Shown here: positions 34,315 to 64,000 of the stretch, in pieces | How the letters are laid out: the number at the start of each line of letters is the position of its first letter | Position numbering within the stretch: the stretch's first letter is position 1 | Assembly: GCA_036936605.1 (NCBI GenBank) | Contig: JAUPFV010000005.1 | Location: 7,958,345-8,022,344 of the forward strand | Source: Limnanthes douglasii subsp. nivea | Taxonomy: Eukaryota > Streptophyta > Magnoliopsida > Brassicales > Limnanthaceae | Direction of reading: 5' to 3' | Length of the DNA stretch: 64,000 nt | The notes under the pieces: model-generated | Databases searched by the model: none | Told to the model about the DNA's origin: nothing | What the model saw: the letters and a program-made list of their open reading frames with translations, nothing else | Position numbers and translations under genes: made by a program

Positions 34315-34841
34315 TACAATTATCACAAAATGGTTCAAGTACAGAACATATGCAAAGGAAAGACTTAAATGAATACAATATTTAACGTGGTTGGATGTTG
34401 TCTACGTCTACGGGCACCGCTAGAGAAATGAGTTTCACTATGATAGCAGATTTCAAATTGTGTTTTGTGTAGTCCTAGTAGTCTATTTATAAGGAATTAA
34501 TAGACTTACTAGACAGTTAGCCTAATGGGCTCATATACACTAATAAGAAAACCATCCATTGCATTACCATTTAATGTGGTTCGACAATTGTCTACGTCCA
34601 CGGGCACCACTAGATAAAAGAGTTTCAGTATGATAGAAAAGGTTACAGATTTCAGATTGTGTTTTTTGTAGTCCTAGTAGTGTATTTATAGGGAATTAAT
34701 AGACTTAATAGACAGTGGACCTAATGGACTCATATACACTAATAAGAAAACCATTGATTGTATTACATCTTGTCAATGACACAAAACTGTATCGCCGAAA
34801 CACGGTACACTGTCAAGGCATTATTCGACTAATTCACAAAA
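34315..34841 (-). repeat. Rearranged LTR of the 39.6-kb copia family (inverted relative to it)
   Basis: The reverse complement aligns with 39617-39952. Shared landmarks include the TGTGAAT start, CAGTTTTGTGTC, a TATA-like stretch (ctatttata on plus), cccgtggacgtagacaa and the end ttttgtgataattgta. About 190 bases around gtctacgt..acgggcacc are duplicated in tandem (34401 and 34591), so this copy is longer than its relative. No internal coding region is attached on either side. Confidence 0.7.
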
Positions 34842-42408: not shown

Positions 42409-43245
42409 CTCCAACTAATGTGATATTGTCTGATTTGGACTATAAGACCTGTACGGCTTTGTTTTTGGTTCGCTTCCGAAATGCTTCACAATCATTAAGA
42501 TAATTCTTTCATTTATATATTGTATCTTATTTTTATTTTTTTAAGCAAAAGAAGTAACTTTATTATAAAAGAATTGATGTGGGATAGAAAATCAAGTTAA
42601 CGTACCAGATATTTTAAAACTCCTCTTAAACTTAATATGCTCTAATGAGCACAATCACATTGAGACATGACTGAATGTTGGCTTTATTACAAAAGAATAT
42701 ATGTGTGATAGACGACCAAGTTAATGAATCGAATACTCTAACACTCCTATTTAAACTCGATCTACTGTAATGGACACAGTCATATTGAGACATGGCGGAA
42801 TGATAACATTTACAAAAGAATTGATGTGGGATCGATGACCAAGTTATGACACCGAGTACTCTAACACTCTTCATTAAACTTTATATATTCTAATGAGCAG
42901 GGCTTTATTGAGACATGGCAGAATGATAACATTTACAAAAGAATTGATGGAAGATGAAATACCAAGTTAAGGCACCGAGTACTCTAACATTCCCTTTTAA
43001 ACTAGATCCGCTCTAATGGACAACGAAACATGACGGAGTATTAACTTTATTACAAAAGAATTTGTGTGGGATAGAAGACCAAGGTAAAGCACCTAGTCAC
43101 AAGAGTTTGGAGCCTCAAAGCTCAACTAATGTGATATTATCCGCTTTAGGACATAAGACCTGCACAGCTTTGCTTTTAGTTCAATTCCAAAAAACCTCAC
43201 AATAATTAAGATAATCCATTCATTTATATATTGCGTCTTATTTTA
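42409..43245. repeat. ~123-bp tandem array (5 units) between two ~120-bp direct repeats
   Basis: Units carrying 'aaaagaattgatgtgggat..a.accaagtta' then 'ctctaacactc..ttaaact..at' and 'tctaatg..ca' have their gaat landmark at 42571, 42695, 42818, 42941 and 43058 (spacing 124, 123, 123, 117). The array lies between direct repeats at about 42409-42530 and 43123-43245, which share 'caactaatgtgatatt.tc', 'ataagacctg.ac.gctttg' and 'catttatatattg'. The unit frames on the minus strand (42632-42874) are repeat translation. Confidence 0.85.
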
Positions 43246-43686: not shown

Positions 43687-44984
43687 ATGGAGTCCACTGA
43701 CACAACCGCTGTAACCAACAACAGCAACAGCAACAGCAACGGCACCACTCCATCTCTCTCTCCTTCTCCGTCGTCTTCTCCTCCTCCACCGGTGGTTCTC
43801 AGTCCTTGCGCCGCTTGCAAAATCTTGCGGCGGAGATGCGCCGCGAAATGCGTGCTGGCGCCGTATTTTCCTCCAACCGATCCGGCGAAGTTCACCATTG
43901 CGCATCGTGTTTTCGGTGCTAGCAACATCATCAAGTTTCTGCAGGTAAATAATAACCTATTTGAATGATTGAATCATCGATTCAAATTCTTTAAACTAGG
44001 TCAAAGGAATTGTTAATTAAGATCGGTTGTTTGGATTAGATGTTTAACTCGATGAAAATTGTAGTATGTATGCTGCTCCATGAATCATTTAACTGTGCTA
44101 TGGCGATTTGATCTCCTAAATCGCTGGTTTTGGATTCAAGTCCTGCTCACTCTTTGTTAAGATGCTAATTGTTGCTATAGATCATTCGAGAAGTGAACTT
44201 CGTCCCTCCGCGTACGAGAAATAGTATCAACAAATTTTATACTGCCTTCTATTAGAAGAATTTTGGATTGAATTAGGTTTTCCTATTGACTTTACCTTTC
44301 GCTATCAAGTAAAATACTCAGAAATGAATCTACTAAGTTCGTACCTGCAAGGTCTTGAACTCGATGGGAGAGTAGGAATGACCTTACCGATAATTTCAGT
44401 GGAGTTAGGTTTATTCCTTCTAATATGACTCTGCCATAGACTCTAGAACCATATTGACGCGACATGAAGTAGTAACAGAGCAGCCTCCAACATCTTGATC
44501 ATAGTCTCATCTCATAATTTTGCGGCATACTAATATTGCATCCTGAGCATCAAGAATACACATATAGATTTATCCAATCTTAGAAGAAATATATAGCGGT
44601 GTTCTCTATATTGACGTGATATGTTTTTCCGAAATGATTCTACAGGAACTTCCAGAATCTCAAAGAGCTGATGCAGTAAGTAGCATGGTCTACGAAGCCA
44701 GTGCAAGAATCAGAGACCCAGTTTACGGAAGCGCAGGAGCCATTTGCCAACTCCAAAGACAACTGAACGAGCTCCAAGCACAACTAGCCAAAACACAAGC
44801 AGAGCTTGTCCATATGCAACTCCAACAAGCAGACCTCATGGCTTTACTTTGCTCGGAAATGGCACAAAACAATTCTATGCTACCACCACCGGTGGACAAT
44901 AATTTCATCAGCAGTCCGGATAGCAATATAAGCTTTGGAGACGACATCAATCCGATGTCGTTATGGGAGACTCTTTGGACGTGA
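43687..44984 (+). CDS. LBD: LOB-domain transcription factor, LBD1/LBD11-like (two exons)
   Basis: Plant-specific LATERAL ORGAN BOUNDARIES DOMAIN protein, a nuclear DNA-binding regulator of organ boundaries and lateral organ development. Exon 1 is 43687-43944 (86 codons) and exon 2 is 44646-44984, giving 198 residues. The 701-bp intron has a GT (gcag/gtaaat) and an AG (tctacag/gaactt) and lies in phase 0. The N-terminus is rich in Asn, Ser and Pro. The C-block CAACKILRRRCAAKC fits C-x2-C-x6-C-x3-C, followed by the GAS block (FGASNIIKFLQ, then ELPESQRADAV) and the DPVYG motif. A leucine-rich coil (LQRQLNELQAQLAKTQAEL) follows, consistent with a class I member. After DPVYG the family usually has C, but here it is SAGAI. 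Exon placement follows the domain across the splice and is not supported by transcript data. The start is the first ATG after the TATA-like box. The exact orthologue is uncertain. Confidence 0.93.
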
Positions 44985-49699: not shown

Positions 49700-52600
49700 T
49701 GATAAATTTCTAAGTTTAAATAAAAAAGTCACATGGGTTCGACCATGTTAGAATTTCGGGAGATGTTAAGTGTTTTTTATTATTTTTAAATGTTTTATCA
49801 CGTATTGGATTCTATCTGAAAAGTCTGACCCATTTTAATACTTGAAAAAATAAAGGATTTTGTTCGATGATTTGGAAATAAATCAATTCAAAGTATCCAA
49901 TCTTCCTATTAATATATGAACGATATCGATTTTCAAGGTGGTTTTATGGATGCCAAGTTCGGAAATTGCTTCAGGTCTATCTCGGTACCTTTTTTATTAA
50001 CCAAATAACCCAAAAATATTCATAACCCAACCCCAAATGTGTATTTTTCTAGGTTTAGCTAATGATTTATTGTACGAAGTTTTTAAATATTTTCTAAAGG
50101 TCTACAAGATGATCCTTATCATCGTTATTTTTTACTAGTATATTGTTTATAAGTGCTTGTACATTTCTTCCAATTTGAGAGGAAACAATTTTTTGGCCGA
50201 ACTTTGATAGGTTTCTCCTGCATGTTTCAGACCTAAAGTTATTATTATCTTAACAATGTAATTTTTTTTCATTCATGAAAGTTATGTACTTCTCATCAAA
50301 TGAATTTATAGTTATCTAATTTTACAAAAAATATGTATTCATGAAGAACAATATCATGTTTTTCAAAATAAAATCCACGAGTTGATTGATATGTGATACT
50401 CGAAATGGATCTTTAGGAATTCTCTATTTAGTTTAGTGAAGTAAACACCAGATAAAGTGCTTCATTTATATGAACGATATGAGTTAAGAAAGTCACTTAA
50501 AAAATAATGACATTTGTTTTATCATGAAAGAAAGGTTTGTTGCTTTATTTTATTGACATGAAATTGCTTTTAGTGGATAAGCAATGGCATACTAATCTGG
50601 TTTGGACTCCGGTTACATTCTTCGCAGACTAAATAAATACTTTCGCGTTATGAGAAAGAAATTCTATAAAGCTAGTTCAGAGTACCCATTACAAGTCTTG
50701 ACCAATATAAACAATTCTTATTTCTCTCATTATGAATTATTATACTTCATCTCCTGGTTCCAGAACTTGGGGGGCTCTCTAGGATCATTCATGTCCTCTA
50801 AAGTGATTAGAGGCCTTATTGGTTACTATTTTGAAAGAAACCTAAAAGTAGTGTAGCATTCAAGGGGTATTAATTGTTTGTTGTGGATTTTACATATTTT
50901 GTCATTAATCATAAATTTGTTACATTGATGTACGATTGAAGCATGATTTAGCCATGAACATCATTGTATATCATGATGGGATGATAGACTATCCACCACC
51001 ATGAAGATGCACTGTACCTTTTTGTATGTTTTCCATGCCCCATAACCAAATCCAATTTTAGTTCCCCAAACTCATGAGTTTGGGCTCTAAACAAAATAGA
51101 TAACATCATATTTGATGAGATTTCAGTATTGATAAGAATTATTTTGATTTTTGCCTCAACGATTTTAGCAACAATGATCATTTCATCTCTACGAGACCCT
51201 ATTATCACTCTTAAATCATATTAAAAATATGGTAAGGTAAAGAATCATGTAAAGGTAACATGATGTTTAATTAATTTATTGAACCTCTGTATCATATATT
51301 TGACATTTCAGGGAGGATTTTATTATTCTTGAAAATGTATCATCCTAAAAATAAATCAACAATTTGTATGTTTAGATATAGATCTACATGTCTCATAAAG
51401 GAAACTTATTCTACTGTTTGGGGTTTCGAAGCTTGGTGTGCTTTTATTGAAACATCTATCTGAGGTTTTAGAATTTATTGTTATACATTGTTTTGTGGTA
51501 CCCCAGGGGCTCGACTATTAACAAATTGAATGAGTTTACTATCATTAATCAGAATTTGGATCTTACATTTCAAGGTACAACATTCTTTTGTATGATGGTT
51601 GGCTTAGTTATGATATTTACAACACCTATTAGGATTCATTTTCCCTCAAAGAGCCCATATTATATGGTTTTCAAAAAGAATCATATATTTGGTTTGGTCA
51701 TATATAATAGCTATAATTTTTTTGAGTTCGGTATATTGTATCTATTAAACCTATTATTTTTTCTATAAGGTCTTAAATCCATAGTCTGTTGGAATTTTAT
51801 CCTTTGTGACTAGTTGCGAGGTTGTTATTTTAACAGAACATGAAGAGGCTTGGCTGGACTATACAGATTATTATACGCAAGATGATAAAAAGGACATGCA
51901 GTAGGTTTACCTGGAAATCTCATGCACATGGTTACATCCACCTTTATCTATTGCTCTACCTGAGCCAAAACTTTTCTAAGATTTATATACTTGTTTCTTG
52001 ATATCATTTTCAAGTAGTTCAAGGAGGATTCATTGCATATAAATGGCGTATAACAAAAGATAGTGGAAATTCTAAAAAATTTCTTGCTTCAGAACGAACC
52101 TCCTTGTATAGTTTATGAGTATTTTTTTAACTTCATGTTTACAATAGATGTATAATCACCATCACCCTGTATGACATTGCTTCTAATGAATTGATCCTTG
52201 AAGAAAGTCCAAAATTCACCAAGTGTGTGGATTATGGATGAGGTAGTTAATTACACGAAGTCATAACACTACCCTAAAAATTTATAGATAATGATCTATA
52301 TAGAAGTCTTCATTGCCTTAAAACGTTAGCATCTTACTTTTGAACAATTCGAGGTGGTGCGTAAGATTGGTTGTTCAATCATACTTATCCATTTTGTATT
52401 GGTTGAATTGGAAATTAGATCCCCCTCCATTATTCTTTATGTTAATGAGGATGCAAATAAGTGATATTGAACTTTTCACATCCTCGATAACCATATCTTA
52501 GAATTCTTAAAACTTGAGGGTTTATCGATTGATCATGTCGATTTATTGATTAGAAATGATGGTTCAACTGTGGATACACATGGTTGACCAATTAAATTTT

Positions 52601-53110
52601 TTGGTTCATCGGTAGCTAACCCAAGGTTAGCTCACTAATGGGGAGGGTGGCTCACCGGTGGTAAATGATGGTTCATCGATGGAACTTAATGGTTTGTTTC
52701 TGCGATCTGCTGACGATACCGTCTTGACCGGTGGGGCTTTGAACATGCATTCTGAAGTGGTATTGATGATTCATCAGAGGAACGTGATTGTTATGTTTTG
52801 GCAACACATTTATTGTCATTGTTGGGTTCATCCTCACGATCGGGAGTTTCACTTTTTGAACATGAGTGATCTTGCATGTTGTGATAATGTTCTTCTCTTC
52901 CCACTGACGTTTTTCAGCACGATGGTCATGACGTTTTGTTCGGGATGAGTGGATAGTGGAAGCTTGATACCGTGATTTTGAAATAAAAGATGTGTCGCAT
53001 CCTTCATAGGCATTGAGTTGCCTACGATTACAATGGATTCCAAGTTGGTACCCTTGTCTTTCTTTTCTCCCAATATCATAGCTTGTTTGTGGTGGGCGTA
53101 CCTTCAATTG
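49700..53110 (-). mobile_element. Ty3/gypsy (Tat-like) retrotransposon remnant, minus strand
   Basis: The minus strand between about 50450 and 49950 reads as gypsy reverse transcriptase. LGLKHAGETYQ (near 50240) is the PFGLKNAGATYQ motif. Shortly after come QIGRNVQ and INNILVKN, where active elements have YVDDMLVKS; the catalytic aspartates are therefore lost. HLVDL and a KIFKNF segment follow in register. Sequence at 50390-50450 fits the upstream RT block that ends in the conserved LNKA/VDFT region. The span up to 53110 should hold protease and gag, but no motif is firm; the 144-residue minus frame at 52673-53107 is in the right place to be gag-adjacent but unrecognised. No LTR identified. 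Confidence 0.6.
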
Positions 53111-53153
53111 CCCATCATCTACTTGATGTCAAATATCTCTTCAGCCTAGTTGC

Positions 53154-53205
53154 GTTGCAAAGTATTTATTTGTAGTTATTGTAAAGTATTTATTTGTAGT
53201 TGTAT
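53154..53205. repeat. Short tandem duplication (aaagtatttatttgtagtt)
   Basis: The 19-base word occurs near 53158 and 53182, about 24 bases apart. Confidence 0.7.
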
Positions 53206-53930
53206 CTCATCTGCTTGATGTCTAATATCATTTCCTTGTTTGTTTTGTTTTTTATTTTTTAATTTAATATTTAAATATTGGTGAAATTTTAAAAAACATT
53301 GTTTCAAATCTTTTAAAAACTTTCGATTATTATATGCGTCAATAATGATAATTATAAAATTATTTTTATTATATTCAATGCTATATTATATTCAGTTGTG
53401 AGATTCTTTTATTCTATAATAAAAAAACTTATTTATAATTTGAGATTATATAAACCAAAGAATAAAAGAATTAATATTTTTATACAAAAGATATTTTAGT
53501 TTGACATAAATTCAAAAAAATATTAATCACAAATTTATAAACTAAAATTTGATTAAATTATATATTTAAGTATATATCATAAATAATTAACTAATCATCA
53601 ATTATGAGTAATTGTCTTGGACGGAAAATAGGCATACTACTGCTCCTAAAGTTGGACCACAACAATCCAAAACCATTTTGTAATCAAATAAATATATAAA
53701 TATTGTCCTAACCCATGATAATATATTTCTTATATAAGAGAGTCTCAATAGTCAAATATGAAATCATTTGTAAGTGAACTCGGTAGTCAAATATAAACAA
53801 TTTATATAGAAAGTGTTCCAAATAAATTTTGAAAAACCTTCTAAATTTATAAAAGCACTGAAGTTATGTTTCATCAAAACAAATGATTTTTTTATTTTTT
53901 TTTAATTTTTTATCATAAATTTTGAATTCT
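53206..53930. other. AT-rich interval, no feature recognised
   Basis: No frame or repeat of note. Confidence 0.45.
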
Positions 53931-54061
53931 GTAGGTTTTAGCGAAAAACAATTGATTCCGAGATGGTATCTCAGAATTAATGGTTCTGTGCAAAAACAAC
54001 TGATTTCGAGATACCACTTCGGAATCATGTGTTAGTCGCTAAAACCTGCACAAATCGGAAT
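53931..54061. repeat. Foldback with nested palindromes (cruciform-type)
   Basis: The left arm starts gtaggttttagcg (53931). It pairs with the right arm ending cgctaaaacctgc (54059 region), and inside this gattccg pairs with cggaatc. Each arm also contains its own imperfect palindrome of about 24 bases, gattccgagat/tatctcagaat (53954-53977) and gatttcgagata/cttcggaatc (54002-54025). The whole segment could fold either as one long hairpin or as two smaller ones. It may be a tiny MITE or a small-RNA hairpin. There is no evidence of expression. Confidence 0.75.
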
Positions 54062-54782
54062 TTGGGATTAAAAGTGTTTTTTAACATGGATTTTCAAGTT
54101 ACATGAATATACAACTTAAAAACAAGATTAAATTACATTGTTGGTTGATTGTGTGATGTTTTCCGGTGTTAAATCTTTGGTTTGGGTGTCTTCCTCCTCT
54201 ATGAATAATTTTTATCAAATTTATGATTTTTCTTTTGTTCTTGTAGTTTAATTTTATAAGTTAAAACAGATTAAATCGTGGTTTAATCTTTTTTTGTTGA
54301 TATAAGTTTTTGAAAAATGTTGACATAAAATTATAAATTAAAAAAATAAAGTGAAGATAAAATAATAAAAATAAGTGATGAATGTTTTTTTTTAAAATTT
54401 AAATTATAAAGAAAATAAAAAAAAAATTGGAAAAAATAACTTCATCCAAACATAAATTATATAAAACTAGATTCATATAAATTATTTTAAAAAAATATTG
54501 ACGTATCTAAACATAAAATACTACCAACTAAATTATTCAAAATTGTTGACAAATTGATGCTTTAAAATTTAGTTAATTACGTTTGGTACATTTTATTTTA
54601 TTTTTAAATTGTTATCAAGCAGGATGGTCAAAAGGGAATAATTTGGGGTCTTGAACTTGAATAATATACTAAAATTTATATGAAAAACATGGAAGTAAGT
54701 TTGAAGAACAGTAGTAGTGTAATGTCAAAAGCCACAAAAGTCGTAGTAAGAGACAATAAATAAGAAAAGTTTATAGTTGCCT
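54062..54782. other. AT-rich interval, no feature recognised
   Basis: A-rich and T-rich runs, no frame of note. Confidence 0.45.
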
Positions 54783-54852
54783 AACGAGAAGATAAGCATC
54801 CAAGACCAAATTAGCGAGAAGATAAGCATCTAAGACCAAATTAGCGAGAAAA
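54783..54852. repeat. 30-bp tandem repeat, about 2.3 units
   Basis: Units beginning cgagaagataagcatc lie at 54785 and 54815, with a partial third from 54845. Confidence 0.9.
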
Positions 54853-55202
54853 TATCGAGTAGACACTTATCTATTCAATTAGCTTTTTAAAACATGCTTT
54901 GTCCCCTTGCCCATGCAGTTTTAGCATTTTATTTAAGACTTGTGGTAATAGCTTAGACTAAAAAAATCACTATTAACATGGCGCTTTGCAATGGTGTCAA
55001 ATTGACCGTAAACGAGGGACGTGGGATATTTTGGATGATCGACGTGTGGTTCGGTGGATGTTTCTGCTGTAATTTTGTGGAATCGTTTTCGTGATTTGTT
55101 TCAAGACAATGCGAATTTTTATGTGTTTTTTTGGAATATGTGTTTAATAATATTTATTTGTGGGATTTTTTGTCGGTTTCTGTTTATTGTCAACACCTCA
55201 AT
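54853..55202. other. Host flank next to the endogenous virus
   Basis: Similarity to viral leader stops at about 55203. Sequence below that (for example 55000-55190) matches neither viral copy in this window. It could be host DNA or a viral part not represented elsewhere here. Confidence 0.4.
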
Positions 55203-55267
55203 ACTCTTTCTCGGTCACATAGATCTTTTCCGTATTTCTTACCCTCCTTCGAAAAATGTTTTTGTAT

Positions 55268-55281
55268 TGGCTCTGATACCA
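55268..55281 (-). promoter_or_regulatory. tRNA-Met primer-binding site of the viral minus copy
   Basis: On the minus strand TGGTATCAGAGCCA is the conserved caulimovirid/retroelement site complementary to the 3' end of initiator tRNA-Met, where minus-strand DNA synthesis starts. It lies about 430 bases downstream of the predicted transcript start, as in a 35S-type leader. Confidence 0.9.
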
Positions 55282-55672
55282 CTGAGGTAGGTAATAGTAT
55301 AAGACTGAGCTTTCCAGAGGTCGATCCGGATCGACACACTTTGCCGTCACGGATACTGTTTCTGGTCTCCAGTTCAATATACAAAACCAAGCGGAATCTC
55401 GAGACCGATACCAGCGGTTCCGATGATTCTTTCAGTTTTAGACCTAGAATCACTGTGTTATACTCAAGCTATTAGGACCACGGGAGGCTGCTTCAGCCAT
55501 ATATGGGTCCACTTTTTAGCTTCTGCTGTATAACACGATGACCTTAGGTAAGAACTCAAAGGTTCGGAACCACAGGATCTAAAGAACACATATTTTTTAA
55601 GAAGGAGGAGAATCCATACAGAAAGATTAAGAACTTTGAGAGAGAAGCACAAGAGTTTAGAAAAAAGACATG

Positions 55673-55678
55673 TTTATT
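55673..55678 (-). terminator. Viral polyadenylation signal AATAAA
   Basis: AATAAA on the minus strand lies about 40 bases after the predicted transcript start. Pararetroviruses pass this signal once and use it on the second pass, giving a terminally redundant RNA. Assignment is from position and motif. Confidence 0.55.
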
Positions 55679-55741
55679 GAGAGTAGTAGAGATGTTTTTG
55701 TATTGTGATCTTTACAGAGTGTAGGTTGCCTCTTTATATAG

Positions 55742-55803
55742 AGAGGAGCTTACTAGGGTGAGATCACAAGTCTTATCCTTATTCTCTATGTTACAGACAC
55801 GTG
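55742..55803 (-). promoter_or_regulatory. 35S-like viral promoter: TATATAAAG box and upstream G-box
   Basis: On the minus strand TATATAAAG (55742-55750) sits in the intergenic region between the pol stop and the PBS, the usual place for the pregenomic RNA promoter. A palindromic CACGTG (55798-55803) lies about 50 bases upstream. The predicted start is near 55715. If active, it would transcribe away from the pol frame, into the leader remnant and the flank below 55203. Confidence 0.7.
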
Positions 55804-55926
55804 GATAAGGGGAGAGCCACTTGGCGTCTCCTTACAAAAACAGACATGCAGAATAATACAAATTTACATGCATAAAAGACAAACTTATAATGGGCCCCCT
55901 TTTATTTTGTTGACTTGTTGACTTTA

Positions 55927-58900
55927 TCAGGCCCACTCAAATCTACTAGGCCCAGGGTTGTCTTTATAGGAGAAGTCCATTGGGCTTGGGCCTTGGATAT
56001 TTCTATCGTTCTCCAATTCTTCAAGTTCAGCCTCTATTGTTTCGAGTAAATCATTGTCTTTGATGTCCATGATTGATGGGCTGAATTTTCTTTCTTCTAT
56101 TAGGTTCGTTCTCTCCCAATCTATGATGGGATCAGGTTCTGATTCCTTTCGTTCTGCCCGGTCTACTTCCATTGTGCTGCCAGTGGATTCTTCACTGTTT
56201 TTGTTGTTTGATTCATTAGTGAAGATAAGGAACGTGCGAGTGTCATGGATGGGCCCAAGGGATGTATGTTCAATATGTAGTTCTTCCATGACCCCATTGT
56301 TTCGTATCAACATATCTTCTTGGAGTTGTCGAGTTAGACATTTACAAGTATCTAACATAGTTATTCGCGGAAAAGCACACCACATGTTGGTGTCATTTTT
56401 AGACCATAACTGATTAGTTTCTGGGTGATGGAAGTATGGTCGGTGGAATCCGTAGATGACTGCTAATCTTCCTGGAGGATCATCGGGTTCTTGACAATAT
56501 TGTGCATCGATCGTTCTGACTTCTTTGAGCTCATCTATCCACCATTGAATTGGGTTGAACCATTCTAAGAATGTCCAGAGAAGATCATTGGAGCGAGATG
56601 GTGTCTGGAGATTTTTTAACATAGGTTCCACCTCAAAAGCAATCGGTGCGTAGTACATTATTGTGAGACACCAAAGATACCATAGTTGAGACGGAAAAAG
56701 TCTCTTATCCGGGGTAAACCGGTAGATAGTAAGGTAAGGATGTTCTGGAAAAAACGTGCTCTCTCTTGGAAAGTACCCGGTATCCTTGAATGTCCTCATC
56801 ATCCAATAGAATAGATGATTTTTAGCGTAGTACTGACAATCAAATGCAGTTTTGATTGTAACTTCTGGTGGAAATTCCTTTTTAATAGATGCTCGAGGCG
56901 GTCTTTGTTGTGGAACAGGCCGGACCATGAAGATTAGTGGGAATTTCCGAGCTGAAGTGATAAGCTGTACCGCTGGTGGAGGTCGAGACAGAAGATCTGG
57001 GATTAAGTTGCGTTCTCCTTTTATATGTTGTACCTCAAAGTCGTATTTTGAGAACCAGGCTTTTAATCTGAGGAGCTGTTTCTCAGGGAGCGATTTGTTA
57101 CGAAATTCAAGAACTTTTGGGAATGAGGAATTATCGAGTTGCACCAGAAAATGATAGCCGAGTAGATGAAACTCGAATTTCTTGATTCCGTATTTGACAG
57201 CTAGTGTTTCTTTGTAGACGGTATGATAGTGTTTTTCAGCATCTTTGAATTGTCCACTCGCATGTCCACAAAAGTGTCTTTTGCCTTCAATTTCTTCGAG
57301 TAAAATAACTCCCCAGAATTCGTCACTCGCATCTGTCTGCAAAATTCTCTTACCCTCTCCAGGAATCTTTAAGGGAGGAGGATTTTGTGTTACCTCTTTT
57401 AAATTTTTTACCGCTGCTGTCTGCACTGGTCCCCAAGGTGGTGCTGTTTTTCTCAACATTTTTTATAACTGGCTCGTATCTCGGGAAGCGTGTGGTAGAA
57501 AGTCTTTCAGGTAGTTGACAATGCCCAGAAGCTGTTGTATCTGTTTTGTTGTCAGATCTTTATCTGGGAACTTTTGAAGTTCCTGAGCGATGTGTGGCCC
57601 AGGTTGGTATTTTCCGTTGGAAAACTGCATGCCTATGAAGTCTATGCTAGTTCTTCCTAGTTGGCTTTTTCTTTCAGATAGCATAATCCCATACTCCTGC
57701 ACAATTGACTGGAATTGTCCAAGCAAGACCAGGTGTTCTTTATCGTTTTTTAAGAATAACAGTATGTCGTCAATGTACACCAAAGCATGATGTAGTATGG
57801 GATGGAAAATCTTTGTCATTGTTTTCTGGAAGATGGAAGGAGCTACTTTGAGTCCGAAAGGCATAACTGTCCATTGGTAATGAGCATTGGGGATGCAGAA
57901 TGCTGTCTTGGATCTCTCGCTCGGATCTATCCCTACTTGCCAGAATCCTGCTTTTAGGTCGAATTTGGAGAAGACATGGGCTTCTTTGAGATGGATGAAT
58001 AAGGTGTTTATTTTAGGTAGCGGAAACTTGTCATCTCTTAGAAAGTGATTAAGAGGTTTATAGTCGATGACGAGCCTCTTTTTTCCCCTGGCCTTCTCGG
58101 ATCGTTTTTCAACATAAAAAGCTTGACAGGCCCATTCTGATGTAGTGGGCTCAATAAGTCCTTGCTGCAGAAGCTCTTGGCATTCTTTTTGTGCGAGGAC
58201 TAAATCAGATGGAGACATACCCGGATGTGTAGCCTTGGTCGGATTTAGGTCTTCATTAAGCTTGAATGGCAGATGGATAAAAAAGTCTTTGTTCTTCCAT
58301 AACGGGTTGGGATGTTGGAAATCTGCATGGGAGTCTGTGCATAGTGGAAGAAGCTTTGTCTTGATTTCTGAGTAGCTAGAAGAGGCTTCTGACAAGGAGA
58401 ACAGCTTGTGTATAGTTGTATATAGCTTCATCGACCTCTTGAATCTAACTCCTTCTGGCAAGATCTGAAGCCTTTTGGCTTGCTGATATACGTCAAAACC
58501 AACCAATATATCTTTTCCTGGCAGGTTTGTTCCCAAAACTTTTGTCCAGATGATGCAGTCAGGGAAGAACTGGATTCCAATTGGGTTCCTCGTGATTAAC
58601 TCAGTTTTAAAAACCTCTCCGTCAGCTGCTCGGAAGTATTCTGTATGCTTAACCCAATATTCTGAAGGAAGGATGGCTCGATTCATCATGCTTCTGTGTG
58701 CCCCGGTATCCATAAACCCAATCACGGAGATTGGTTTATCGTATTTAGAAGGAAGAATATGAATTTGTACCAGTGGAACTGCAGCCGTTGGTTGAGCCGA
58801 GCAAGCTTGGGCAGTATAAATAGGAATCTCGGTGTCACTTATTCCTGAGTCATCATCGTAAGAATCTTCTTCTGAGATCGAGTCTTCTGAGACATTTAGG

Positions 58901-59070
58901 GCAAACACTGTTTCCTCATTTGTCTCTTCTTGTTCTAAGAAGAGAGACTTGACGTCTGCGTCTCCTATTGGGAAACTGTTTTGCACTTGTTGCAACATTC
59001 GGGCCGCCTTTTCTGGTTTGTTCGGACAATTTCTTGAAAAATGTCCTTTTTGTCCACATACAAAACATCT
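55927..59070 (-). pseudogene. EPRV polyprotein fragment: zinc knuckle, protease, RT, RNase H, C-terminal region
   Basis: One frame broken by a single stop (TAA, 57463-57465). The CCHC knuckle CFVCGQKGHFSRNC begins at 59067. The retropepsin motif DTGA is at 58710-58699. RT (about 58150-57600) has LVIDYKPLN, FSKFDLKAGFWQ, MPFGLKVAPSIFQ and the catalytic YIDD (57766-57777). RNase H from about 57340 has QTDASDEFWG, ETLAVKYGIKKFE and PDLLSRPP. A ~345-residue C-terminal region without recognised domain follows to the TGA at 55927; its last third is acidic. The frame formally opens at 59280, but residues 1-70 are antisense leader and start of the other copy, so that ATG is not viral. The stop separates RT from RNase H, so the fragment cannot give a full pol protein. 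Confidence 0.93.
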
Positions 59071-59073
59071 ATC
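59070..59073. other. Head-to-head junction of the two viral copies (TATC microhomology)
   Basis: Left of the junction, the sequence is the antisense of the zinc-knuckle region, ending ...aaaacatcTATC. Right of it, the sequence is viral leader starting inside the PBS, TATCagagcca. TATC belongs to both. In the intact PBS (minus copy) two G precede it, and in the zinc-knuckle region TGATTTT follows it on this strand. Four shared bases are typical of microhomology-mediated end joining. Confidence 0.85.
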
Positions 59074-59080
59074 AGAGCCA

Positions 59081-59215
59081 ATACGAAAACATTTTTCGAA
59101 GGAGGGTAAGAAATACGGAAAAGATCTATGTGACCGAGAGAGAGTAGCCCACACAAACAATATGACCTCATAAACACCCACCACCTCAAACCAGCTTCTC
59201 CAGCTTTCTTCAACC
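59081..59215 (+). other. Viral leader with short uORF
   Basis: Sequence to about 59147 matches the leader at 55203-55267 in reverse complement. A three-codon uORF (ATG ACC TCA TAA, 59160-59171) precedes the movement-protein ATG at 59216. Short uORFs in the leader are usual in Caulimoviridae, where ribosome shunting or reinitiation is used. Confidence 0.6.
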
Positions 59216-61741
59216 ATGACCTTACCATCGTCATGTACTAAAACACAAACCTCTAAAATAGAAAACCTGATCGAATACACCCATGTACCAAAAAACTCCC
59301 AGGTTAATGAATCTTCATTACCTTTGGTAAGCCCTTATAACCTTTACCGGAAAAAAGGATCTTTGACAAAAAATATTCGAACTCTGATCAGTACTAAAAG
59401 ACCTCTACTAAAAGAATATGTTCAGTCTTCTAGACTGGATCAGTGTGTCCTGCATGCAACTACGGCAGAACAATATGTCACCATGGAGATACCAGAAGAA
59501 TTCATAACCCGGTGGAAAGAAGAAGGATACACGCACCTCCATCTCGGAGCTGTCCGGGTAGTCCTAACACACCATGGGAGGAAAGGGTTGCCGGTCACGG
59601 CGAGACTCGCTTTGTTGGACACAAGGTTCTTACAATACCAGCACGCGGTCATAGGCACGATCCTTACGACTCTCCATGCTGGAAGTGCAGTTCTGACGTT
59701 CTTCCCCAATTTCAATCTGTCACTTCGAGATCCAAATCTTGCCACCTTTTTAAAGGTTCAGGTCCAGATTACAGGAGCCGAGCAAAAACGATCTTCTATG
59801 CCGGCTACCTTGCACCACCAGATTGTCTATCGTTTGCAAGATCATGCTATGGATCTGCCATCAAAACAAGAATCCTCTAATGCTCTCTTGGTGCTAGCAA
59901 GCAATGATGAGCAAATCCCGACTATCGTCCAGATTCCAAGACAGATCCCAAAGGAAGAACTCCATAAGCTTATGCCATTGGAATGGATCACGAATTATGA
60001 GAAAACTCAAACAGAGACACATCTTCTCAGAGCAGCAGACCCTACTTTCCTTAGACAAGACAATGGAACAGTAAAAACGGTGTATAAACTTGAAGATGAA
60101 GAAGGGGCAAAAGTTCCAATCTTTCATTCTAATATGGTGCACCCGGTTTACAAGCCAAGAGAAAAACATATACCCATTTCCCGTTTCCACCCAGACGGAT
60201 CACATTCTTATACTGATAAGATAGACGGACACTTCATTTGGGATGCTGATCCCTCTATGTGCGATGAAGGGTGTACATGCTGGATGGAGGGCTCTGATTC
60301 TGATGACGACTCAGAAGAAGACGAGGAAAGGATCTTAGATCTCCAAGACATGAAAAGTACAGATAAAGATGATCCTCTCCATTCCTGTATGATGTTTTCA
60401 CCCGGATCAACATCATACGTAGATGAGTTTCCAAAACTAGAAAAGCACGTGGACGCACAAACAAAGGTTGTATCCAAGCCGTATGTACAACCTTCCTCGA
60501 TATTGCCAAGTGGAAAGATGGAAGAACCCAGCCAACAGGAAGCTGTCCTAAATTGGCATACAAACAACGCCATTGCTCAGAATATGGTTCTTCACAAAAT
60601 AGACCACAAGGTAGAAGAAGTCCTCTCCCAGAATAAACAAGTCGAACGTAACTTTGGAGAGTTGAACCGCCAAATTCAACAACTGTATCAAAAATTACGA
60701 TCGCAAATTGCTCAGCTAGATAAGGAGTTAAGGAGCATGATATTACAGAAAAAGACGGGACGGGAGTTTGACCAGAAGGAAGCAGAAATCAAAAAATTGA
60801 AAGCAGATATTGCTATGATCGAATCTGACATGATGATGTCACATATGCCCTTCCCTACGTATACTAATCCGGTACACGTTCCGAAAGAAACAAGTCCATC
60901 TTTCTTTCCTCAACTACCCGACTACTCGAGCCATTTTAAGATGACTCATGATATATTAAGGCCTACTCCAAAGCCCGTGCTAAAGAAAGAACAAAAGGGG
61001 AAAGAGAAAATCGAGGACCTACCCCAAAATATGGTTTTTCAAGTCCCAGACTGGAAGGAAAACTCTCCATCCACTGAAGGTGAGCTCACGGAAAGTGAAG
61101 AGCTGGGATCCGAAATGGCTGATATTACCAACCTACTTATGGCCAACTCTGTAGAATCAGATGCCCGAGCGGAGGACACGGAGAATATAGAAGAAGAAAC
61201 GGTTCCTCTGACATTTAAAAAGGATCCCCTCAAACCAACAGGAGGTCCTTGGTTCACTTTTGATGACGTTCTTCCTCACCAACGGAGAACAAGGCTGCAT
61301 GAGTTTGGAGCATGGATTGATCTCCAAATGACCAGGAACGGGGTCGAACTATCAGATGTCCTGAGAGAATTTGCCTCCCGAATGACGGGATCTCTTAGGG
61401 AATGGTTCCATACTTTGGGTGACTACCGGCAGCTACAGTTCTACCAAGTACAAGAGGCCTCAAGTATTCTGGGAACCATACATCAAGAATTTATCGGAGA
61501 CTATTCTCTGATAGATAGAAAGGCCCGACAAGAATACTTTGAAATGAAATGTTGTTCCTTAGAGGCCAAAGATCTTGAGTATCACTACCAGAGGATGTCC
61601 AAAAGGTATTATATGCTCAACGGGTATAATGACCCCAATTTGAGGCACACGTATATTGCATCTCTTCCTACAGAGGTTCAACCGGACCTACAGAAAGCTA
61701 TTGCAGCGACAGGAAGAGAAGTGGCCAGAATCACCTTATGA
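59216..61741 (+). pseudogene. EPRV movement protein - coiled coil - coat protein N-terminal frame (841 aa)
   Basis: This is the front part of the viral polyprotein. Residues about 80-217 are a 30K-superfamily movement protein, with the conserved LLDTRF at 133-138 followed by the beta-rich core; such proteins line plasmodesmata to pass virus between cells. Residues about 380-420 are acidic. A long coiled coil spans about 455-545 (heptads in LNRQIQQLYQKL and QIAQLDKEL). A second acidic stretch precedes the coat-protein (gag-like) domain from about 677 (PWFTFDDVLPHQRR, REWFHTLGDY). The frame stops at a TGA (61739-61741), yet coat-like and Lys-rich sequence continues in the same frame, so the stop is a disabling mutation. 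The ATG at 59216 is the first after the short uORF. Confidence 0.9.
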
Positions 61742-62821
61742 GAGATTCATCAACTAACTCTTTCGGTGATCGAGAAATTATGCGACCAACAAAGGCTTTT
61801 CAAGTCAATGATGAATAATAATAAATTACTCACTAAGGCTTGTCGAAAGCCTTACCTGGAGATCAAATGTAAAGGCAAAAAGGAGTGCACATGCTCTACG
61901 AAGAAAAAGACGCACTTCAAAAAATTTAAGAAGAAATTTCAGAAAGCTAAGAGGTATAAAAGGCCTTTCAAATTCTTCCAGAAGAAAAATTTCAGGAGAT
62001 CCTCAGCAAAATCAGATAGATGTTTTGTATGTGGACAAAAAGGACATTTTTCAAGAAATTGTCCGAACAAACCAGAAAAGGCGGCCCGAATGTTGCAACA
62101 AGTGCAAAACAGTTTCCCAATAGGAGACGCAGACGTCAAGTCTCTCTTCTCTGAACAAAAAGAGACAAATGAGGAAACAGTGTTTGCCCTAAATGTCTCA
62201 GAAGACTCGATCTCAGAAGAAGATTCTTACGATGATGACTCAGGAATAAGTGACACCGAGATTCCTATTTATACTGCCCAAGCTTGCTCGGCTCAACCAA
62301 CGGCTGCAGTTCCACTGGTATAAATTCATATTCTTCCTTCTAAATACGATAAACCAATCTCCGTGATTGGGTTTATGGATACCGGGGCACACAGAAGCAT
62401 GATGAATCCAGCCATCCTTCCTTCAGAATATTGGGTTAAGCATACAGAATACTTCCGAGCAGCTGACGGAGAGGTTTTTAAAACTGAGTTAATCACGAGG
62501 AACCCAATTGGAATCCAGTTCTTCCCTGACTGCATCATCTGGACAAAAGTTTTGGGAACAAACCTGCCAGGAAAAGATATATTGGTTGGTTTTGACGTAT
62601 ATCAGCAAGCCAAAAGGCTTCAGATCTTGCCAGAAGGAGTTAGATTCAAGAGGTCGATGAAGCTATATACAACTGTACACAAGCTGTTCTCCTTGTCAGA
62701 AGCCTCTTCTAGCTACTCACAAAGCTTCTTCCACTATGCACAGACTCCCATGCAGATTTCCAACATCCCAACCCGTTATGGAAGAACAAAGACTTTTTTA
62801 TCCATCTGCCATTCAAGCTTA
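61742..62821 (+). pseudogene. EPRV coat protein end, zinc knuckle and protease, broken
   Basis: It continues the movement/coat frame after the TGA. A Lys/Phe-rich nucleic-acid-binding stretch (about 61880-62000) leads to the CCHC knuckle (62021-62062) and an acidic linker (SEEDSYDDDSG). A TAA at 62321-62323 interrupts the frame just before the protease; the minus copy has a sense codon there. The protease motif DTGAH follows at about 62377-62391. Near 62719, a 10-base deletion relative to the minus copy shifts the frame, so downstream residues up to 62833 are out of frame. Three lesions thus disable this copy. Confidence 0.9.
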
Positions 62822-64000
62822 ATGAAGACCTAAATCCGACCAAGGCTACGCATCCGGGTATGTCTCCATCTGATTTAGTCCTCACACAAAAAGAATACCA
62901 AGAGCTTCTGCAGCAAGGACTTATTGAGCCCACTACATCAGAATGGGCCTGTCAAGCTTTTTATGTTGAAAAACGATCCGAGAAGGCCAGGGGAAAAAAG
63001 AGGCTCGTCATCGACTATAAACCTCTTAATCACTTTCTAAGAGATGACAAGTTTCCGCTACCTAAAATAAACACCTTATTCATCCATCTCAAAGAAGCCC
63101 ATGTCTTCTCCAAATTCGACCTAAAAGCAGGATTCTTGCAAGTAGGGATAGATCCGAGCGAGAGATCCAAGACAGCATTCTGCATCCCCAATGCTCATTA
63201 CCAATGGACAGTTATGCCTTTCGGACTCAAAGTAGCTCCTTCCATCTTCCAGAAAACAATGACAAAGATTTTCCATCCCATACTACATCATGCTTTGGTG
63301 TACATTGACGACATACTGTTATTCTCAAAAAACGATAAAGAACACCTGGTCTTGCTTGGAAAATTCCAGTCAATTGTGCAGGAGTATGGGATTATGCTAT
63401 CTGAAAGAAAAAGCCAACTAGGAAGAACTAGCATAGACTTCCTAGGCATGCAGTTTTCCAACGGAAAATACCAACCTGGGCCACACATCGCTCAGGAACT
63501 TCAAAAGTTCCCAGATAAAGATCGGACAACAAAACAGATACAACAGCTTCTGGGCATTGTCAACTACCTGAAAGACTTTCTACCACACGCTTCCCGAGAT
63601 ACGAGCCAGTTATCAAAGATGTTGAGAAAAACAGCACCACCTTGGGGACCAGCGCAGACAGCAGCGGTAAAAAATTTAAAAGAGGTAACACAAAATCCTC
63701 CTCTCTTAAAGATTCCTGGAGAGGGTAAGAGAATTTTGCAGACAGATGCGAGTGACGAATTCTGGGGAGCTATTTTACTCGAAGAAATTGAAGGCAAAAG
63801 ACACTTTTGTGGACATGCGAGTGGACAATTCAAAGATGCTGAAAAACACTATCATACCGTCTACAAAGAAACACTAGCTGTCAAATACGGAATCAAGAAA
63901 TTCGAGTTTCATCTACTCGGCTATCATTTTCTGGTGCAACTCGATAATTCCTCATTCCCAAAAGTTCTTGAATTTCGTAACAAATCGCTCCCTGAGAAAC
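62822..64000 (+). pseudogene. EPRV reverse transcriptase and RNase H, open to the window end
   Basis: The frame resumes after the 10-base deletion and stays open to 64000. It reads LVIDYKPLNHFL, FSKFDLKAGF, MPFGLKVAPSIFQ, the catalytic YIDD near 63302-63313, then DFLGMQFSNG, and RNase H from about 63740 with QTDASDEFWG and ETLAVKYGIKKFEFH. The nonsense codon that splits the minus copy at the RT/RNase H border is not present here. In the conserved 'GFWQVG' segment this copy has leucine for tryptophan. No start codon of its own is expected; in the virus this part is released from the polyprotein by the protease. The 3' end lies beyond the window. Confidence 0.9.

Follow-up and report, generated by a model that had tools for sequence, protein, structure and literature searches.

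The closest described counterpart of the locus reported here is eCPRVE on chromosome A04 of Gossypium hirsutum, which spans ~15 kb and comprises two head-to-head copies that are 98.98% identical; according to the available text of its description, it was found in all upland cotton genomes its authors analysed (PMC10458927). In tomato, rearranged endogenous caulimovirids with an inverted-repeat conformation yield 22-nt small interfering RNA (siRNA; Valli et al. 2023, as summarized in the review PMC10377300), and some endogenous segments in rice terminate within the intergenic region and others where the viral DNA is discontinuous (excerpts of PMC526188). Tandem and rearranged clusters are further topics of the portions of the review at hand, as are capture by end-joining or through microhomology and the recombination of viral repeats that lie in inverted orientation (PMC10377300). 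The Caulimoviridae replicate without an integration phase, and synthesis of their minus strand is primed by tRNA-Met, leaving a discontinuity at the priming site (PMC7660458). Junctions within clusters of endogenous pararetroviruses are rare records of chromosomal entry by viral DNA that has no active integration mechanism. Here, we describe such a junction in Limnanthes douglasii subsp. nivea, in a window of 64,000 nucleotides (contig JAUPFV010000005.1, positions 7,958,345 to 8,022,344), whose positions 55202-64000 are two decayed, almost identical caulimovirid copies lying head to head in the plant chromosome.

Comparison of positions 55000-64000 with the whole window by blastn revealed two inverted matches, and the same arms were recovered in a second comparison covering 50000-64000. 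The long match pairs 57078-59076 (minus strand) with 62012-64000 (plus strand) over 1999 columns at 98.5% identity, with 20 mismatches and one gap. Its right arm is cut by the window end, and the locus has an inverted-repeat conformation with arms of at least 1.99 kb. The short match relates 55202-55278 to 59070-59146, where 75 of 77 nt of leader sequence are identical; its right arm forms the start of the plus copy. At 55202 the match to the plus-copy leader ends abruptly, marking the left virus-host boundary, and the G+C content rises from 0.29 (1-55201) to 0.42. No further viral copies were found in the window by blastn, and a tblastn search with three viral pieces returned, outside 55202-64000, just two chance-level matches (50070-50245, E 0.5). 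These comparisons bear out the initial annotation in its central points, namely two nearly identical pararetrovirus copies, head to head, around an exact junction at 59070-59073; the left end it gave as 55203 is a true boundary but was one base off. The pair is of the eCPRVE type, with two near-identical copies, one on each strand, that lead away from the junction between them.

The minus copy (55202-59073, minus strand) contains, in this order, a CCHC zinc knuckle, reverse transcriptase (RT), RNase H, a C-terminal extension, an intergenic region, the leader, the tRNA-Met primer-binding site (PBS) and a further 68 nt. It lacks the movement protein (MP) and the coat protein (CP) region upstream of the zinc knuckle. 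From the zinc knuckle to the C-terminal extension it is a single frame, interrupted by one in-frame stop that lies after RT and ahead of RNase H. The plus copy (59070-64000, plus strand) begins inside the PBS and proceeds through the MP, the CP region, the zinc knuckle and RT into RNase H, running past the window end. Positions 59174 to ~62717 of this copy form a single frame, interrupted by two in-frame stops, one of which ends at 61741, outside the overlap with the minus copy; relative to the latter, the plus copy has a 10-nt deletion. The domain content read earlier from the letters was largely correct, with two amendments: the minus copy does not end in the leader but 68 nt past the PBS, and "partial" is established for the minus copy only, as the plus copy leaves the window.

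A Pfam scan of five pieces of the two copies identified the MP (PF01107, 66 bits against a cut-off of 23), and both copies exceeded the cut-offs for RT (PF00078), RNase H (PF17919/PF17917) and the zinc knuckle (PF00098). In the minus copy, the segment 57463-59069 (minus strand) combines the zinc knuckle and RT with a match to the aspartic protease PF00077 that, at 17.3 bits, falls under the cut-off of 20.7; the corresponding piece of the plus copy (62324-62833) lies outside the scan. No integrase appeared among the Pfam matches of the five pieces, with the right end of the plus copy beyond the window. To our knowledge, the lack of an integrase is a trait of the Caulimoviridae as a family. The minus-strand open reading frame (ORF) 57463-59334 was also considered as a leader fused to the zinc knuckle, similar to a florendovirus component A, and was rejected, its N-terminal part being the antisense of the plus-copy leader.

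The junction itself occupies 59070-59073, where the four bases TATC agree with both parents while the next base on either side agrees with only one. Sharing of 4 nt or more was obtained for 1.8% of 100000 random break pairs drawn from the same viral sequence, which is mild evidence for microhomology-mediated joining. The position of the junction is more telling than this overlap. The 12-nt tRNA-Met PBS motif occurs once without mismatch, at 55270-55281 on the minus strand, and is crossed by the minus copy without a break; since this copy passes the PBS by 68 nt, ending at 55202, its donor was continuous at the PBS. The plus copy starts inside the PBS by 3 nt, a distance that could be as much as 7 nt because TATC is shared. 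A random end would fall within 3 nt of the PBS start with a chance of 0.1%, and within 7 nt with ~0.2% by the same arithmetic, both values being after-the-fact probabilities for a target picked once the data had been seen. The exact junction 23-mer had no match in IMG/VR, from which records of the window's own genome may be excluded, giving this result little bearing on uniqueness.

The overlap between the two copies contains 19 coding differences in 18 codons and one 10-nt gap, excluding one mismatch at the junction itself. The differences comprise 15 replacements, 2 stops and 2 silent changes, compared with a neutral expectation of 13.1, 0.8 and 5.1 derived from random mutation of the same codons (5000 draws), and they are distributed over codon positions 1, 2 and 3 as 6, 10 and 3. 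Of the neutral draws, 8% had no more than two silent changes and 18% had at least two stops. These arm differences bear no sign of purifying selection, and nothing in them suggests an origin in replicating virus. We therefore rejected two distinct virus strains as the main source of the differences, as purifying selection predicts mostly silent changes but only 2 of the 19 are silent. One codon carries two adjacent changes (58936-58937), and this double change could predate capture.

Relatives, taken from the 120 best-listed of 528 proteins, were compared at 12 of the 19 sites (77 to 113 informative per site). They favoured the minus copy at five sites and the plus copy at five (one of them weakly, 14/88 versus 3), with one further site silent and one open. 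In addition, each copy bears, within the overlap, one in-frame stop absent from the other. Judged from these alignments, there are private changes in both copies, and each has decayed separately. With its 15 replacement, 2 stop and 2 silent changes, the spectrum of the differences indicates near identity of the copies at the time of capture and decay that came afterwards. At plant rates of 1.3e-8 and 7e-9 substitutions per site per year, the divergence of p = 0.0096 corresponds to an age of 0.37-0.68 million years (0.22-1.07 with Poisson limits), a rough estimate built on general values for rates and limits; gene conversion between the arms would make it too young.

We consider it probable, at roughly 0.6, that two molecules of one virus population were captured jointly, with a PBS-open end joined via TATC, and were inserted together. 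A first viral DNA molecule would have been open at the PBS, where tRNA priming leaves the minus strand discontinuous. A second molecule, in the opposite orientation, would have been broken at the zinc-knuckle region while being continuous across the PBS. The ends of the two would have been joined through TATC, by microhomology-mediated end joining or by a strand switch, and the joined pair would have entered the chromosome as a single event, after which both copies would have decayed without selection. In a variant of this scheme, the 3' end of the minus strand at the PBS would switch onto another viral strand. The end just inside the tRNA priming site, the 4-nt overlap and the apparent neutral decay all fit end-joining capture of open replication DNA. 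A simple fold-back of one linear minus strand would be insufficient, because the minus copy runs past the PBS, where a fold-back would stop.

Several points weigh against joint capture. The 4-nt overlap is weak on its own, and the neutral test comprises 19 changes only, being compatible with neutrality without proving it. Furthermore, the host end of the minus copy lies within 77 nt of the plus-copy start on the viral map, a proximity that independent random ends would reach with a probability of 2.3% and that requires either a hot spot common to both ends or a single terminally redundant molecule that was flipped later. The latter leads to an alternative in which homologous recombination between the 77-nt leader repeats, or between the arms of at least 2 kb, inverted part of an older array after insertion, leaving the present order as one isomer. 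Both repeat pairs do stand in inverted orientation, and one flip isomer would unite the PBS-near ends as the two termini of one terminally redundant copy, for which their proximity on the viral map would be expected. Recombination between inverted repeats is also part of the published eBSGFV-7 model, as outlined in the available sections of PMC10377300. By reasoning, however, every isomer keeps the PBS/zinc-knuckle junction, and a flip adds a step without removing any. We rank it second because each isomer requires the same abnormal junction, and regard it as unlikely. The initial annotation had left the choice between joint integration and inversion after insertion; the PBS-located end favours joining at or before integration, as far as the sequence can tell, but with inverted repeats of 77 nt and at least 2 kb a flip could also have come later.

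A late inverted duplication would also be compatible with the near identity and the neutral-type differences. In this case a single virus would have been inserted, and template switching during replication would subsequently have copied part of the resident copy in reverse alongside it. Such an event would leave the breakpoint just inside the PBS unexplained, and the plus copy would have to pass a second PBS beyond the window; we give it a slim chance. Just as slim is the chance of an assembly or library artefact, in which separate loci or the parts of a chimeric molecule were joined at 59070. Amplification is known to generate inverted chimeras with short microhomology, but the window contains no Ns and a 4-nt overlap is too short for a join made by an overlap-based assembler. 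Moreover, 19 coding sites and the 10-nt gap set the arms apart, so that one is not a mere assembly duplicate of its counterpart. The reading that we retain is joint capture of two molecules.

The intergenic region of the minus copy contains a TATA box (55734-55740) and an AATAAA motif (55673-55678), both identified by motif match and both on the minus strand, pointing left and out of the locus (55673-55740). In the plus copy, the sequence upstream of the PBS is missing. The motif scan, which covered the intergenic region of the minus copy, revealed no viral promoter directed from one copy into the other. Production of a hairpin RNA from the inverted repeat would probably depend on host DNA for read-through, either on the left or outside the window. 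In tomato and soybean, loci with caulimovirid sequence in inverted-repeat form are reported to be sources of 22-nt small RNA (PMC10377300, in its available sections), and by analogy the present locus is a possible candidate for the hairpin class linked to small-RNA defence. A more ambitious interpretation, which we regard as improbable, would take the locus as a base-resolved record of a strand switch in a replication intermediate: the 3' end of the minus strand at the PBS would have acted as a primer on a second viral strand, in the zinc-knuckle region, yielding a head-to-head molecule ahead of capture, and the resulting inverted repeat could, with host read-through, be a natural hairpin source of antiviral small RNA.

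To place the element within the family, we compared its RT/RNase H piece with known proteins. Among the best 120 of 528 matches (E <= 1e-20), the top one is 68% identical over 99% of the piece, and these 120 include neither a near-identical annotated copy nor a PVCV-labelled reference. In IMG/VR, which may exclude records of the window's own genome, the RT piece gave one unconfirmed pattern match and no confirmed relative. From map arithmetic over positions 55202-62015, the implied length of the viral genome is ~6740 bp, which falls short of the 7.1-9.8 kbp given for the Caulimoviridae (PMC7660458), with the caveat that two decayed copies may hold deletions. RNase H is followed, in the same frame, by the C-terminal extension (55930-56967, minus strand), this frame running down to 55927, which differs from the separate ORF2 in another frame found in most florendoviruses. 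Petuviruses have a single ORF (PMC7660458), and some florendoviruses also lack a separate ORF2 (PMC4241990, in the part available). From its sequence, the same-frame region leans towards a petuvirus-like genome, but the implied length is shorter than the ICTV range.

The C-terminal extension is ~31% identical to P0048 and P0064 across most of its length. Pfam lists no family for it, and a protein search retained none of 722 candidates at E 1e-5. When about the same part was compared by blastp with the 120 listed RT/RNase H relatives, a small set, eight matched at E < 1e-5. Its AlphaFold model is weak (mean pLDDT 62) and has one strong viral structure match (A0A6B9KS65_2, E 7.4e-8).

In the host DNA of the window, the only gene recognised is a LOB-domain (LBD1/11-like) gene, of which an exon at 44625-44981 (plus strand) is 60-72% identical to the best 120 of 1512 proteins, the named ones coming from many eudicots. 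A 66-nt inverted repeat (79%) is located at 53907-54073, ~1.1 kb left of the insertion, and a tandem repeat with a 30-nt unit in 2.3 copies at 54785-54854, ~350 bp left of it. Two further host tandem repeats are found at 34380-34766 (199-nt unit, 2.0 copies) and 42563-43022 (123-nt unit, 3.7 copies). In contrast to many published loci, no (TA)n run beside the left boundary was reported in the tandem-repeat scan. ARAGORN found no tRNA genes, and Rfam gave no match at the gathering score.

Like eCPRVE, the Limnanthes locus consists of a head-to-head pair of caulimovirid copies, one on each strand; their identity is 98.98% in cotton and 98.5% here. The cotton element has two full-size copies plus a TA gene, and its plus copy is called slightly decayed in the available text, which contains no sequence of the junction (PMC10458927). 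The Limnanthes locus, in turn, has a partial minus copy and a right end beyond the window, and Pfam lists no TA family for the five pieces scanned. The published cotton pair also qualifies the earlier interpretation: endogenous pararetrovirus, orientation and base-level junction all hold, but the novelty it implied is not supported. The inverted-repeat conformation of rearranged caulimovirid DNA is common to the tomato siRNA loci (PMC10377300, in the sections at hand) and the present one, whose promoter motif points out of the locus. The rice RTBV-like segments resemble the Limnanthes locus in the placement of their ends, which fall in the intergenic region or at sites where the open circular form is discontinuous; those segments derive from another virus, and a head-to-head pair is not described for them in the excerpts of PMC526188.

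At the level of genome organization, the order MP, RT, RNase H is that of petuviruses and petuvirus-like elements (PMC7660458; AcV1, available part of PMC4411674), and the PBS sequence TGGTATCAGAGCCA is common to AcV1 and the Limnanthes locus (here 55281-55268, minus strand; PMC4411674). The implied map of 6740 bp compares with 7122 bp for AcV1, which has three ORFs, and ~7206 bp for PVCV. Florendoviruses, as presented in the available text of PMC4241990, have the comparable order MP, CP with zinc finger, protease (here a match below the cut-off), RT and RNase H; most of them have a separate ORF2, whereas here the region after RNase H continues in the same frame. A peach florendovirus 1.2-mer reaches the tRNA-Met site and is then followed by another whole copy, apparently head to tail (PMC4241990). 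Published precedents exist for a head-to-head pair, in cotton, as well as for inverted-repeat loci and for ends located at discontinuities, and the Limnanthes locus adds a clean case to this picture without changing it. Its value lies in a clean junction at the start site of the virus's DNA replication, placed to four bases.

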